Of a stretch of DNA of 64,000 nucleotides, positions 45,403 to 51,072 are shown one piece after another. Below the pieces are notes generated by a model. That model was not told the origin of the DNA. It ran no database searches and worked only from the letters and a program-made list of their open reading frames with translations. A program made the position numbers and the translations under genes. This stretch comes from Comamonadaceae bacterium (lineage in GTDB: Bacteria > Pseudomonadota > Gammaproteobacteria > Burkholderiales > Burkholderiaceae_C). How positions within the stretch are numbered: position 1 is the stretch's first letter; every line of letters begins with the position of its first letter. The stretch is from NCBI GenBank assembly GCA_027486755.1, contig JAIXOM010000041.1:1-64000 (forward strand), in the 5' to 3' direction.

Positions 45403-45455
45403 AAATGCTCCGAAGCCGTACCAGTCGACCGGTCGACCAGGGTCGGTGCCAGCCG

Positions 45456-45495
45456 ATGTCATTCTTACGTCATATACACGTCATATGATCGTCAC
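45456..45495 (+). promoter_or_regulatory. Tandem Pho-box-like array upstream of ppx (4 half-sites in 11-bp register)
   Basis: ATGTCAT-TCTT-ACGTCAT-ATAC-ACGTCAT-ATGA-TCGTCAC; GTCA at 45458, 45469, 45480, 45491. Confidence 0.7.
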
Positions 45496-45544
45496 CCATC
45501 AGTTGCATCAAAAACCCACCCGCCTCCTCGACTCAAGCCTCCCC

Positions 45545-47029
45545 ATGCAAGATGGAACCCGCCTGGCCGCCGTAGACCTCGGCTCCAACAGCTTCAGGCT
45601 GGAAATCGGTCAGATCGATCACGGCCTCATCCGTCGTACCGACTACCTCAAAGAAACGGTGCGCCAGGGCGGCGAACTCGACGCCGAGCGCAACCTGACC
45701 GAGCAGGCCATGCAACGCGGCTGGGACTGCCTGGCGCGGTTTGCCGAACGCCTGTCGGGCTTCAAGCGCCAGCAAGTGCGAGCGGTGGCCACACAAACGC
45801 TGCGTGAGGCGCGTAACCGCGAAGAATTTCTGCAGCGGGCCCGCAAGATCCTGGGCTTTCCCATTGATGTGATTCCAGGCCGTGAGGAGGCCAGGCTGAT
45901 TTACCTGGGGGTGGCACAGCTGCTGCCCCACAGCGAGGAACGCCGCCTGGTGATTGATATTGGCGGACGCTCGACCGAGATGATCCTGGGCCAGCACCTG
46001 CAGGCCAATACGCTAGAGTCCTGGCGGGTCGGCAGCGTCAGCTGGTCAAGCAAGTATTTCCCCGAGGGTCAGTTCACTGCGCAGGCCTTTGAACGGGCCG
46101 AGGTAGCAGCAAAAGCCGTGCTCGAAGAGGCCCTGCCCGCCTTTGCCCGCCAGCACTGGGATGCCGCCTATGGCTCATCGGGCACCGTCAATGCCGTGGC
46201 CGACGCCTTGCAAGCCAGCGGCTGGACAGAAGGCGTGATCAGCCTGGAGGCTCTGGACTGGCTACACGACAAGCTGCTGCGCGCCCAAAGCACCGATCGT
46301 CTCAAAATCGAAGGGCTCAAGGATGACAGGCGCGCGGTGATCGGTGGCGGCGTTAGTGTGCTCAGAGCGATTTTCTCCCTGCTAGACATCACCGAAATGA
46401 AGCCCGCCGAAGGCGCGCTGCGGCACGGCGTCCTCTATGACCTGCTCGACCGCCAGGACGACCAGACCGATCTGCGGGTACGCACCGTCGAATACCTCAA
46501 GCGCAAGTACCGGGTCGATGCACGTCAGGCAGCCCGTGTCAGCCAAACAGCGCTGGCCCTGCTGGCACAGGCCCCGCCACCGCAGTCCGACCTGCCGCGC
46601 CTGCAACGCAAACTCGATTGGGCCGCGCAGCTGCATGAAATCGGCAGCCATGTTTCTCACCAGGAATACCACAAGCACGGTGCCTATCTGCTTGACCATG
46701 TCGATGCGCCTGGTTTTGCGCTGGAGGAGTTGCACCGCTTGAGCCAGTTGGTGCTCGGACACCGGGGCAAGCTGCGCAAGATGGAGCAGTGGTTTGCCGA
46801 CCCGGTGTTCATGCGCCAGCTGCTAGCTCTTCGCCTGGCCATCATCCTGTGCCATGCACACCGCGACCCTGAGCTAGAGAGCATTCACCTCAGCCAGGAT
46901 GACCATGCATTGCAGCTGTCCGTGTCGGCTCAATGGGCTGAACGCTTTCCGCAGTCCATGTACCTGTTGAGCGAGGAATGTCTGGCCTGGGACAAGACAC
47001 CCTGGCCCTGGGTACTGAGCCCCCGCTGA
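45545..47029 (+). CDS. ppx: Exopolyphosphatase (Ppx/GppA family)
   Basis: MQDGTRLAAVDLGSNSFRLEIGQI...LVIDIGGRSTEMILG...AYGSSGTVNAVADAL; start placed at 45545 because the longer ORF would run through the Pho-like array. Confidence 0.95.
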   Translation: MQDGTRLAAVDLGSNSFRLEIGQIDHGLIRRTDYLKETVRQGGELDAERNLTEQAMQRGWDCLARFAERLSGFKRQQVRAVATQTLREARNREEFLQRARKILGFPIDVIPGREEARLIYLGVAQLLPHSEERRLVIDIGGRSTEMILGQHLQANTLESWRVGSVSWSSKYFPEGQFTAQAFERAEVAAKAVLEEALPAFARQHWDAAYGSSGTVNAVADALQASGWTEGVISLEALDWLHDKLLRAQSTDRLKIEGLKDDRRAVIGGGVSVLRAIFSLLDITEMKPAEGALRHGVLYDLLDRQDDQTDLRVRTVEYLKRKYRVDARQAARVSQTALALLAQAPPPQSDLPRLQRKLDWAAQLHEIGSHVSHQEYHKHGAYLLDHVDAPGFALEELHRLSQLVLGHRGKLRKMEQWFADPVFMRQLLALRLAIILCHAHRDPELESIHLSQDDHALQLSVSAQWAERFPQSMYLLSEECLAWDKTPWPWVLSPR

Positions 47030-47063
47030 GAACTTAGCTGGACTGCTATTGCCCGTTCGCAAG

Positions 47064-47090
47064 AAACGGTATAAACTGTTTATACCGTTT
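47064..47090. promoter_or_regulatory. Perfect palindrome, 12-bp arms with 3-bp spacer (candidate operator)
   Basis: AAACGGTATAAA-CTG-TTTATACCGTTT, 16 bp upstream of the 47106 ATG; a possible -10 TATAAA (47070-47075) lies in the left arm. Confidence 0.85.
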
Positions 47091-47105
47091 TAAAAGGAGC
47101 TCGCC

Positions 47106-47543
47106 ATGGCAACATCAACACGCGCAAAGACTGTCCCTAACACCGCTAGCGCCGCCAAGAAGGCCACATCCACTGCCCGCCCCACCGCCCGGCCCGCTGC
47201 TCGCCGCAAGCCCTCGGCGGTCGCCAAAAAACAAGCAAGCCCTGCCGCCAGCGCTGCAGCGCCTGCTGCTGCAAGCCCAGCGCCTGCGGCGTCAGCACAG
47301 GCGCCCGCCAAGGTCGATAAGGTCAAGAAACCCAAGCTGGTACGCGACAGCTTCACCATCCCCAAAGCTGAATACGGTGCCATTGACGCCCTCAAGCAAC
47401 GCAGCGTCCAAATGGGCTTGTCACCCAAGAAAAGTGAGTTGCTGCGTGCAGGTCTCATGCTGCTGGCCTCGCTCGATGACGCCGGTCTGAACAAAGCCTT
47501 GACGGCTGTGCCTGCGATCAAGACCGGACGCCCTAAGGCCTGA
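47106..47543 (+). CDS. Uncharacterised protein: histone-H1-like Ala/Lys/Pro-rich tail plus putative ribbon-helix-helix C-terminal domain
   Basis: SD AAGGAG 6 nt before ATG; N-terminal TARPTARPAARRKPSAVAKKQASPAASAAAPAAASPAPAASAQAPAK; C-terminal VRDSFTIPKAEYGAIDALKQRSVQMGLSPKKSELLRAGLMLLASL fits strand-helix-helix. Confidence 0.85.
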   Translation: MATSTRAKTVPNTASAAKKATSTARPTARPAARRKPSAVAKKQASPAASAAAPAAASPAPAASAQAPAKVDKVKKPKLVRDSFTIPKAEYGAIDALKQRSVQMGLSPKKSELLRAGLMLLASLDDAGLNKALTAVPAIKTGRPKA

Positions 47544-47561: not shown

Positions 47562-48059
47562 TTAAAGCAAATCGGGCGACTGCACCGCCAACAGCACGGT
47601 CTGCCAGCGGCCCTCTCGCTCACGCGAGCGCAACCACCAGACCCCGCCCTTGCGCACCGACAGGTCGACCTGCGGCAAACCCAGCAGGCGGGCGGCGGTC
47701 TGACCGAGCGTGGGCTGGTGGCCCACTACCAGCACCGGGGTCTTGCTGTCAGGCCACTGGGCCGCCTCCAACAGGTCCTCAACGCTGTGGTCTGGGCCCA
47801 GCAACTCAGAGGTCTTGAACTTGCGCCCCAGGTTGAGCGCGGTTTGCTCGCAGCGCAGAGCCGGACTGACCAGGATACGAGTTGTTTCGCCCATCTGCTG
47901 GTCCAACCAAGCAGCCATGCGGGCAGCATGTTTTTGCCCGCGTCCCGTCAGGCTGCGCAGCAAATCGCGACGCATCATCTCGTGCCTGTCGTCAACGGGC
48001 TCCGCCTCCTGGGCATCGGCATGGCGCCACAAGATCAAATCCATGCCGGCCCCGCTCAC
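47562..48059 (-). CDS. sixA: Phosphohistidine phosphatase SixA-like
   Basis: MDLILWRHADAQEAEPVDD...TGRGQKHAARMAAWL...LVSPALRCEQTA...VLVVGHQPTLGQTAARLLG; possible GTG start overlapping the ppk1 stop. Confidence 0.93.
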   Translation of the reverse strand: MSGAGMDLILWRHADAQEAEPVDDRHEMMRRDLLRSLTGRGQKHAARMAAWLDQQMGETTRILVSPALRCEQTALNLGRKFKTSELLGPDHSVEDLLEAAQWPDSKTPVLVVGHQPTLGQTAARLLGLPQVDLSVRKGGVWWLRSREREGRWQTVLLAVQSPDLL

Positions 48060-50167
48060 ACGTTCTTTTGCCCCGCGAGCGCATAGCGCGCCATCAGGGC
48101 AGACTGCGCGCTTTGCCGACGCTGGCGCGCCGCCGGCTTGGCATTCTGATAACTGCCATCGGCTTGCAACTGCCAGGCATCACGGCTGTCGTGAAGGTAG
48201 GCCACCAGACATTCGTCAATCAGGCGCTGAGCCATCACAGGGTCGGTGACCGGCCAGGCCAATTCGATGCGGCCAAACATATTGCGGTTCATCCAGTCGG
48301 CACTGGCCAGATACAGGGCCTGCTGCTCGCCGTCACTGAAGTAAAACACACGCGAATGTTCCAGGAAGCGACCAATCACCGATCGCACCCGAATGTTGTC
48401 AGTTTGCCCTGCTACCTGGGCTGGCAGCATGCAGGCACCCCGCACAATCAGATCAATCTGCACGCCATGCCGACCTGCATCGATCAAAGCCCGGATCAGC
48501 TTCTCATCGGTCAGCGCGTTCATCTTGGCCACAATCCGCGCGCTCTTGCCCTGGGAGGCGGACACGGCCAGAGCCGCAATTTTCTCCATCAGACTGGCAT
48601 GCAGGTCGTGCGGTGCCACCAACAAGCGCTTGAGCTTGGGCAGTCGACTCTGGCTGGCCAGGTGATAGAACACATGCTCCACATCCTGGGTCAGTACCGG
48701 GTCGGCTGACAGAAAGCTCACATCAGTGTAAAGCCTTGCGGTGCGGGGGTTGTAGTTGCCCGTGGACAGGTGCACATAGCGCTTGATAGACCGCCCTTCC
48801 CTGCGGGTCACCAGCAGCATCTTGGCATGGGTCTTCAAACCCAAAACCCCGTAAACCACCTGAGCGCCTATGGATTCGAGCATCTCGGCCCAGTTGATAT
48901 TGGCCTCTTCGTCAAAGCGGGCCTTGAGCTCGACCACCACCATGACTTCCTTGCCGCGCCGCACCGCCTCACGCAGCAGCTTCATCATTTCCGAATCGGC
49001 GCCCGTGCGGTAGATGGTCTGACGGATGGCGAGAACCTGCGGATCGTCAACCGCCTGGCGCAAGAAGTCGAGTACCCCATCAAAACTTTCGAAGGGCTGG
49101 TGTATGCAAACCTCACCCTGCTGAAGGCGCTCAAAAATATCCTGACCGGCCACCAACTGACGGGGGTAGCAGGCCTTGTAGGCCGGCCACAATAGACCGG
49201 GGTCGTCGACCAGGTCGATCAATTGCGTCAGGCGGTTGAGATTCACCGGGCCTTGCACCTGATACAAGGCCTGCGCTGGCAGCTCGAACTGCTGCAACAG
49301 AAAGTCAGACAAAAACTGTGAGCAGCCCGAGGACACCTCCAGCCGTACCGCCTCGCCGAAATGCCGATGTTCCAGCCCCGCCCTCAAGGCCGAACGCAAA
49401 TCGGCCACATCAGCTTCCTGCACCGCCAAGTCCGAATTTCGGGTGACCCGAAACTGCGAAAAATGCAAGACCTCCCGACCCGGAAACAACTCATGCAAAT
49501 GGGCCCGGATCACGCTTGAGAGCGAGACGAACAACCGGCCCTTGCGGTTGAGCTTTTCTGGCATGGCGATGATGCGGGGCAAAACGCGGGGCACCTTGAC
49601 GATGGCCACCTCATTGTGGCGCCCGAAGGCGTCCTTACCCTGCAGGCGCACAATGAAGTTGAGCGACTTGTTGGCCACCATCGGAAAGGGATGGGACGGG
49701 TCCAGGCTGACGGGCACCAGCAAGGGACGCACCTCGCGGCGGAAATAGGCTTGCACCCAACGCCGCTGCTCAGTGCTGCGATCGCCATGCGCCACAATGG
49801 AAAAGCCGGCATCCTGGAACTGGGGGGTCAGCACGTCGTTGTAGATGGCATATTGCCGCTCGACCAGGGCATGGGCTGTCGCCGATAGCTGCTCGAAGAC
49901 CCGGCCGTTGCTGGGGGCACCGCGCGCCGCATGCAGGTGCGGCGCCATCCGAACCTCGAAGAACTCATCGAGATTGGACGAGACGATGCACAAATAGCGC
50001 AGCCGCTCAAGCAGAGGCACATCCTCGCGGGTGACCATGGCCAACACCCGCTCATTGAAAGCCAATAGACTGCGGTCGCGGTCAAGCAGGGCCAAGGGAG
50101 CCTGCTCAGAATCTTGAGCCGGCTCAAGCACTACTGGGGAATCGTTGGGCGAGGATGCTGAGTTCAT
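48056..50167 (-). CDS. ppk1: Polyphosphate kinase 1
   Basis: LLDRDRSLLAFNERVLAMV...LRYLCIVSSNLDEFFEVRM...YVHLSTGNYNPRTARLYTDVSFLSADP. Confidence 0.97.
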   Translation of the reverse strand: MNSASSPNDSPVVLEPAQDSEQAPLALLDRDRSLLAFNERVLAMVTREDVPLLERLRYLCIVSSNLDEFFEVRMAPHLHAARGAPSNGRVFEQLSATAHALVERQYAIYNDVLTPQFQDAGFSIVAHGDRSTEQRRWVQAYFRREVRPLLVPVSLDPSHPFPMVANKSLNFIVRLQGKDAFGRHNEVAIVKVPRVLPRIIAMPEKLNRKGRLFVSLSSVIRAHLHELFPGREVLHFSQFRVTRNSDLAVQEADVADLRSALRAGLEHRHFGEAVRLEVSSGCSQFLSDFLLQQFELPAQALYQVQGPVNLNRLTQLIDLVDDPGLLWPAYKACYPRQLVAGQDIFERLQQGEVCIHQPFESFDGVLDFLRQAVDDPQVLAIRQTIYRTGADSEMMKLLREAVRRGKEVMVVVELKARFDEEANINWAEMLESIGAQVVYGVLGLKTHAKMLLVTRREGRSIKRYVHLSTGNYNPRTARLYTDVSFLSADPVLTQDVEHVFYHLASQSRLPKLKRLLVAPHDLHASLMEKIAALAVSASQGKSARIVAKMNALTDEKLIRALIDAGRHGVQIDLIVRGACMLPAQVAGQTDNIRVRSVIGRFLEHSRVFYFSDGEQQALYLASADWMNRNMFGRIELAWPVTDPVMAQRLIDECLVAYLHDSRDAWQLQADGSYQNAKPAARQRRQSAQSALMARYALAGQKNV

Positions 50168-50229
50168 AAGTCCCTTAAAAATTTGTAACATTGATAAGCA
50201 AAAGAACCTGACTGCCTAGTATGACTGCT

Positions 50230-51072
50230 TCATGATGCTGCCGCGGCAAAATGACGACGGTAGCGTGAAGGCAGGTCCTGAGTGCGCATCATCATAGGCA
50301 GGTCGGCGGCATTGAAATCCGGGTCCCAGGCCGGCGCGCCCAGCACCTTGGCCCCCAGCCGCAGATAGCCCCTGATCAGCGCCGGCGGCTCCACATCCTG
50401 GCTGTCGTCAAAACGGTGCACCGGTAGCGGCAAGCGCGGCAGCACCTGGCAGTCCAAGGGCGCCAGGGATGTGGCCCGAAGCTGCCGCCAGATGCTGGCT
50501 GCAGCCTGGCCTGCGGCCAGGCCCTGATGCTGCATCGGTATGCTGGCGCAACCTATCATCACATCGAGCTGATTGCGCAGCATAAACTGGGTCAGAGCGC
50601 CCCACAAGGCCAGAATCACCCCGCCATGCCTGTGCTCGGCATGCACGCAGCTGCGGCCCAGTTCCACCATGCGGCTGCGCAGATCGCGCAGCCGGGTCAG
50701 GTCAAACTCCAGGTCGGCGTAAAAGCTGCCCACCCGCGCGGCCTGCGCTGGAGTGAGCACCCGGTAAGTACCGATGACTGCGTCGCTGTCGCCGTCGCGC
50801 ACCAGCAGATGCTCGCAATAGTCATCGAACAGATCGATGTCATGGCCGGCCAGCGGGCCGCTCAGACGTGCGCCCATTTCATCGGCAAAAACCTGGTAGC
50901 GCAGACGCTGGGCCTGCCTAACCTCATCCAGATGGCGCGCCCAGCTGACCCTGATGCCGTGCGCAGCCAGCGGTACCAGGGCACCCTGCGCAAGGGCTGG
51001 GCGGTGCGCGGCCTGACTGGGGACGTGAATAGGAGACAGGGTTGAGGCGGGACTGAGCATTTCTTCCATCAT
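50230..51072 (-). CDS. GNAT-family acyltransferase, OlsB/hemolysin-like (putative L-ornithine N-acyltransferase)
   Basis: QRLRYQVFADEMGARL...DIDLFDDYCEHLLVRDGDSDAVIGTYRVLTPAQAARVGSFYADLEFDLTRL...VELGRSCVHAEHRHGGVILALW...LIRGYLRLGAKVLG. Confidence 0.85.
   Translation of the reverse strand: MMEEMLSPASTLSPIHVPSQAAHRPALAQGALVPLAAHGIRVSWARHLDEVRQAQRLRYQVFADEMGARLSGPLAGHDIDLFDDYCEHLLVRDGDSDAVIGTYRVLTPAQAARVGSFYADLEFDLTRLRDLRSRMVELGRSCVHAEHRHGGVILALWGALTQFMLRNQLDVMIGCASIPMQHQGLAAGQAAASIWRQLRATSLAPLDCQVLPRLPLPVHRFDDSQDVEPPALIRGYLRLGAKVLGAPAWDPDFNAADLPMMMRTQDLPSRYRRHFAAAAS

Follow-up and report, generated by a model that had tools for sequence, protein, structure and literature searches.

The window analysed here is a 64,000-nucleotide stretch from a Comamonadaceae bacterium (assembly GCA_027486755.1, contig JAIXOM010000041.1), and it contains a gene for a 145-residue protein, preceded by a perfect palindrome and situated between ppx and the convergent sixA–ppk1 genes, with pst/pho genes upstream of this locus (Table 1). 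An earlier reading of the same DNA, made from the letters alone (the sequence-only reading), had placed the gene in this way, and the Pfam/NCBIfam matches of its neighbours bear the placement out. The protein belongs to a previously uncharacterised family, in which a domain predicted to bind DNA sequence-specifically is combined with a histone H1-like tail within polyphosphate (polyP) gene clusters.

Table 1. Features of the locus in window coordinates
Feature	Position	Strand	Basis
ppx, upstream neighbour	45446..47029	+	Pfam/NCBIfam
27-bp perfect palindrome, candidate operator	47064..47090	.	Conserved upstream of orthologs; 9-bp-period units CNG-TWTAWA
TATAAA, -10-like hexamer within palindrome	47070..47075	+	Sequence
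AAGGAG, Shine-Dalgarno-like	47094..47099	+	Sequence
Gene of tail + RHH protein, 145 aa	47106..47543	+	ORF translation; orthologs in 151/300 family genomes
Disordered tail (residues 1-77), rich in Ala, Lys, Pro and Arg	47106..47336	+	Composition, AlphaFold; net charge about +12
RHH-like domain: strand VRDSFTIP (about 79-86), helix A (87-102), helix B (109-122, KKSELLRAGL)	47337..47471	+	AlphaFold, alignment, profile register
Third predicted helix (125-134) and invariant KTGRP motif (139-143)	47478..47534	+	AlphaFold, alignment
sixA, convergent downstream neighbour	47562..48059	-	Pfam/NCBIfam; just under NCBIfam cut-off
ppk1	48056..50191	-	Pfam/NCBIfam

Pfam, NCBIfam and PHROGs hold no credible family covering the 145-residue protein, and a sequence search of the PDB returned no relative. 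Proteasome matches in the PDB search were rejected as chance, and a match to ParD-1, spanning helix B only, was not taken as a relative. Nonetheless, alignments and structure prediction indicate that the C-terminal half of the protein is very probably a ribbon-helix-helix (RHH) domain, the hallmark of that superfamily being an intertwined dimer whose two-stranded sheet enters the DNA major groove. AlphaFold confidently predicts three helices within residues 87-134, and the orthologs share a near-invariant core (K-L-V-R-D-S-F-T-x-P ... K-K-S-E-L-L-R-A-G ... K-T-G-R-P), the R, S and T of the strand being almost invariant. When compared by hhalign with a profile made from local RHH_1 proteins, the strand, helix A and helix B are all in register, so that strand falls on strand and KKSELLRAG pairs with NRSEAVRD. 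This match is modest, its score being the second of 301 when 300 column permutations are included (column permutations, and not circular shifts of the profile, constitute a valid null). Because of the tail the full-length model was uninformative in Foldseek, and the search was run with the 71-residue domain; NikR, ParD2 and ParD1 were the top three of its 20 matches, which also include further ParD, VapB12 and Reg576 chains, all with E-values of 2-9 for a single chain, in which the dimer sheet is impossible. In other words, every individual score is weak, and the profile register, the helices and the fold neighbours jointly support the RHH domain that had been suggested earlier.

The N-terminal half has low pLDDT in the AlphaFold model, and the pI of the whole protein is 11.2. 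The median composition of the tail over family members is about 21% K+R, about 29% A, about 15% P and about 3% D+E. A long tail is N-terminal in 108 of the 125 parsed members and C-terminal instead in 10, while a few members are tail-less; in this parsing some start codons, such as that of L107, are uncertain. The H1-like basic tail described in the sequence-only reading is thus confirmed, with the addition that it is found at either end of the protein and that its composition is conserved rather than its sequence or position. Such a pattern suits a non-specific polyanion-binding role, which we would assign to the tail.

The palindrome, AAACGGTATAAACTGTTTATACCGTTT, consists of 13-bp arms flanking a single T, which makes it a little better than the 12-bp arms around a 3-bp centre with which it had been described; it does lie just upstream of the ATG at 47106, at a distance of 15 bp instead of the claimed 16. 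At ≤3 mismatches, a pattern of 12-bp arms with a free 3-bp centre matches the window once and is absent from 100 shuffles. A chance palindrome was ruled out by these shuffles together with the conservation upstream of orthologs relative to control windows (see below). Genome-wide, the palindrome is a single site in 4.0 Mb at ≤3 mismatches, and a search with the shorter core adds just two further sites, each with three mismatches, which is the background level. As for the TATAAA and AAGGAG elements pointed out earlier, both are present; however, a sigma-70 promoter scan revealed no site reaching the threshold, and the -35-like element nearest to TATAAA is TTGCCC at 15-bp spacing, so that a promoter at the palindrome is only putative.

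Orthologs of the gene were detected in 151 of the 300 family genomes, loci were retrieved for 127 members, and 125 of these were usable in testing the operator. Far from being absent upstream of orthologs, the palindrome core TATAAACNGTTTATA (≤3 mismatches in 14) precedes the start in 122 of 125 loci, a count with a slight bias toward a positive result from picking the start codon downstream of the best motif, versus 0 of 2500 windows taken from these loci and roughly 1% of shuffles. Outside the 27-bp block, conservation is at background. The core occurs with or without an adjacent ppk, and also before the tail-less members L118, L120 and L121. A scan for the exact core found it in 60 of the 300 genomes, 59 of which carry the gene by homology; in the 60th (G139) an ATG follows the site at the very end of a contig, where the gene is cut off. 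The exact site is at the gene's own start in 55 of these 60 genomes, G139 included. Since the operator accompanies the gene at 122 loci, also far from ppk and before tail-less members, and since all 60 exact-site genomes have the gene (cut off in G139), autoregulation through this candidate operator, as had been proposed, is well supported by phylogenetic footprinting.

In the other five genomes the exact sites are at other places, namely the 3' end of ppx (three genomes), the vicinity of PPK2/CHAD (one) and the region before a membrane-protein gene (one), and look like occasional extra targets. The three ppx-end sites belong to congeners (g53), in which the extra operator precedes a conserved ORF of 55-59 aa (L271 11796-12013, L272 11840-12055, L273 11385-11605) and the RHH gene is about 9.5 kb away. 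The extra operator of G197 adjoins PPK2 and a CHAD gene (L274 2983-6053), distant from the RHH gene of that genome. In G297, the operator stands before the gene of a membrane protein of 285 aa that Pfam does not match (L275 5091-6017). Homologs of this membrane protein come after tail-less or short-tailed RHH genes in L118, L120, L121 and L124, and the RHH genes linked to it are possibly a subfamily with a target of its own.

To describe gene neighbourhoods, we used family searches and tblastn instead of longest-ORF calling, which in high-GC neighbourhoods is too noisy for clustering. Eighty of the 127 members are near ppx, sixA or ppk, and 47 are away from them. Among the 45 genomes with a member away from ppk, CHAD or PPK2 occurs within 5 kb in five, with about 0.25 expected by a simple arithmetic estimate (two of the five genomes are congeners). 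CHAD domains are known to bind polyP (PMC6537752). Plasmid-borne and distant members adjoin CHAD, phoU, ppx, pstS or the gene of an annotated phosphate transport regulator whose PhoU_div match is only sub-threshold. Some members away from ppk have no phosphate gene nearby, and no PhoU was noticed by eye within 5 kb of the away members in the listed matches. The link to polyP genes, first remarked for a single cluster, therefore reaches well past it, into CHAD, PPK2, phoU and pstS contexts. About half of the family genomes are without a detected member, and thus the protein is dispensable for polyP metabolism. A separate observation concerns an OlsB-like ornithine-lipid acyltransferase gene, which comes after ppk1 in the window (50230-51072) and which is also present near several RHH members away from ppk (L102, L125, L127 and L308).

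A precedent for tails of this kind comes from AlgP: the protein is located on polyP granules, and granule spacing requires its KPAA tail (PMC9239181). In a 2025 review (PMC13052382), the table on positioning lists AlgP of Pseudomonas and no other polyP-granule protein. Our search of the open literature, which leaves most subscription journals uncovered, found nothing on RHH proteins and polyphosphate. The composition of the tail, the AlgP/PhaF precedent and the neighbourhood suggest, with moderate confidence, that the RHH + tail protein functions in polyP biology. On balance, we lean toward a joint model in which the protein would be a dimeric RHH autorepressor carrying H1-like polyanion-binding tails on polyP granules or the nucleoid. 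According to this model, and as strong comparative evidence suggests, an RHH dimer would repress its own gene by binding the 27-bp palindrome over the start region, and its two Lys/Ala/Pro/Arg-rich tails would bind polyanions non-specifically, these being polyP granules and/or chromosomal DNA. Most likely it would serve as an AlgP-like protein of polyP granules or the nucleoid, its level held by homeostatic control. More speculatively, a build-up of polyP might pull the protein off the operator by its tails and derepress the gene, much as PHB granules release the PhaR repressor from its promoter (PMC3079617).

It might be argued that the protein is instead a general nucleoid-associated, H1-like autoregulated protein, whose tail does no more than strengthen DNA binding and whose synteny with polyP genes is inherited. 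The basic K/A/P tails of AlgP and PhaF do bind DNA (PMC9239181), and the 47 members away from ppx, sixA and ppk are in line with such a role. We nevertheless consider it fairly unlikely, as association with CHAD, PPK2, phoU or pstS arises anew among the away members, in several contexts that are unrelated to one another.

Outside Burkholderiales, related RHH proteins (29-34% identity) adjoin a ParA gene on Calothrix and Piscirickettsia plasmids. Arrays with a 9-bp period, the same as that of the window palindrome, are found beside the gene on the Calothrix plasmid and on one Piscirickettsia plasmid. On Calothrix NIES-4101 plasmid5 (L261 2740-2841) the array is between the divergent ParA and RHH genes, and the locus looks like a partition cassette; on the Piscirickettsia plasmid (L311 703-771) a CTGTTTAAA array of 9-bp period occupies the interval between ParA and the RHH relative. 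No operator-like site stood out beside a second Piscirickettsia ParA/RHH pair (L313), and a search of phages gave no match. As distant relatives pair with ParA, two of them beside 9-bp-period arrays, the architecture is that of ParG-type partition proteins, ParG itself having a flexible N-terminal tail and a C-terminal RHH domain, repressing its own operon and working with ParA (PMC7308502). Kinship of the family with ParA-associated plasmid RHH proteins, which the sequence-only reading had not anticipated, is at this level of identity plausible, not proven, and its descent from plasmid partition proteins is speculative.

These same relatives and the ParG-like layout would also accommodate a partition protein that still works with ParA in trans, the palindrome being a centromere-like anchor. 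This seems improbable: in a tblastn search with the Calothrix ParA over away-from-ppk Burkholderiales, plasmid and distant loci (near-ppk loci were outside the set), only Calothrix itself matched, the window gene has ppx and sixA and not ParA beside it, and the genome holds a single site, not an array. A scenario that we offer tentatively as somewhat unlikely is that an RHH protein of the plasmid-partition type lost its ParA partner, acquired an H1-like tail and became, in Burkholderiales, an organiser of polyP granules, tethering them to the chromosome and adjusting its own abundance as polyP titrates it away from the operator. That the palindrome serves another regulator, for instance a Pho regulator, might be suggested by its location within the pst/pho/ppx region, but it is very improbable, for the site follows the gene even on Comamonas, Paraburkholderia and Calothrix plasmids and gene-less genomes are without the exact site, the contig-end case (G139) excepted. 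Finally, a solitary antitoxin-type RHH regulator, which the ParD and VapB12 antitoxins among the weak fold neighbours might bring to mind, is scarcely credible given that no partner gene follows in the window, where sixA is convergent, and that we know of no antitoxin with such a tail.

With its well-defined operator, the family lends itself to direct tests of autoregulation, polyP binding and granule tethering. It also hints at a connection of plasmid partition proteins with the organisation of storage granules, and bears on the way in which polyP granules are positioned and passed on in bacteria.

Among known systems, the CopG/MetJ/Arc repressors (Pfam RHH_1) agree with the protein in the register of the strand and of helices A and B and are likewise autoregulated, as we infer here, whereas the present protein is unmatched by Pfam and has an extra C-terminal helix, the KTGRP motif and the tail. 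Omega is an RHH centromere-binding protein like ParG, with a tail, an RHH domain, autorepression and repeated short sites. The family resembles ParG and omega in its flexible tail and RHH domain, apparent autorepression and short repeated sites, and its distant relatives adjoin ParA; however, the tested Burkholderiales members have no adjacent ParA, and they have a single palindrome, a long H1-like tail and a polyP/phosphate neighbourhood. With AlgP of Pseudomonas and PhaF the family shares the K/A/P-rich disordered tail. For AlgP, a helical domain at the N-terminus is described without mention of a ribbon-helix-helix (PMC9239181), while in our family the tail is usually N-terminal, its partner is an RHH domain and the gene has a candidate operator of its own. 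PhaR, in turn, is comparable as a repressor that a storage granule could titrate, hypothetically so in the present case, and differs in both fold and polymer.
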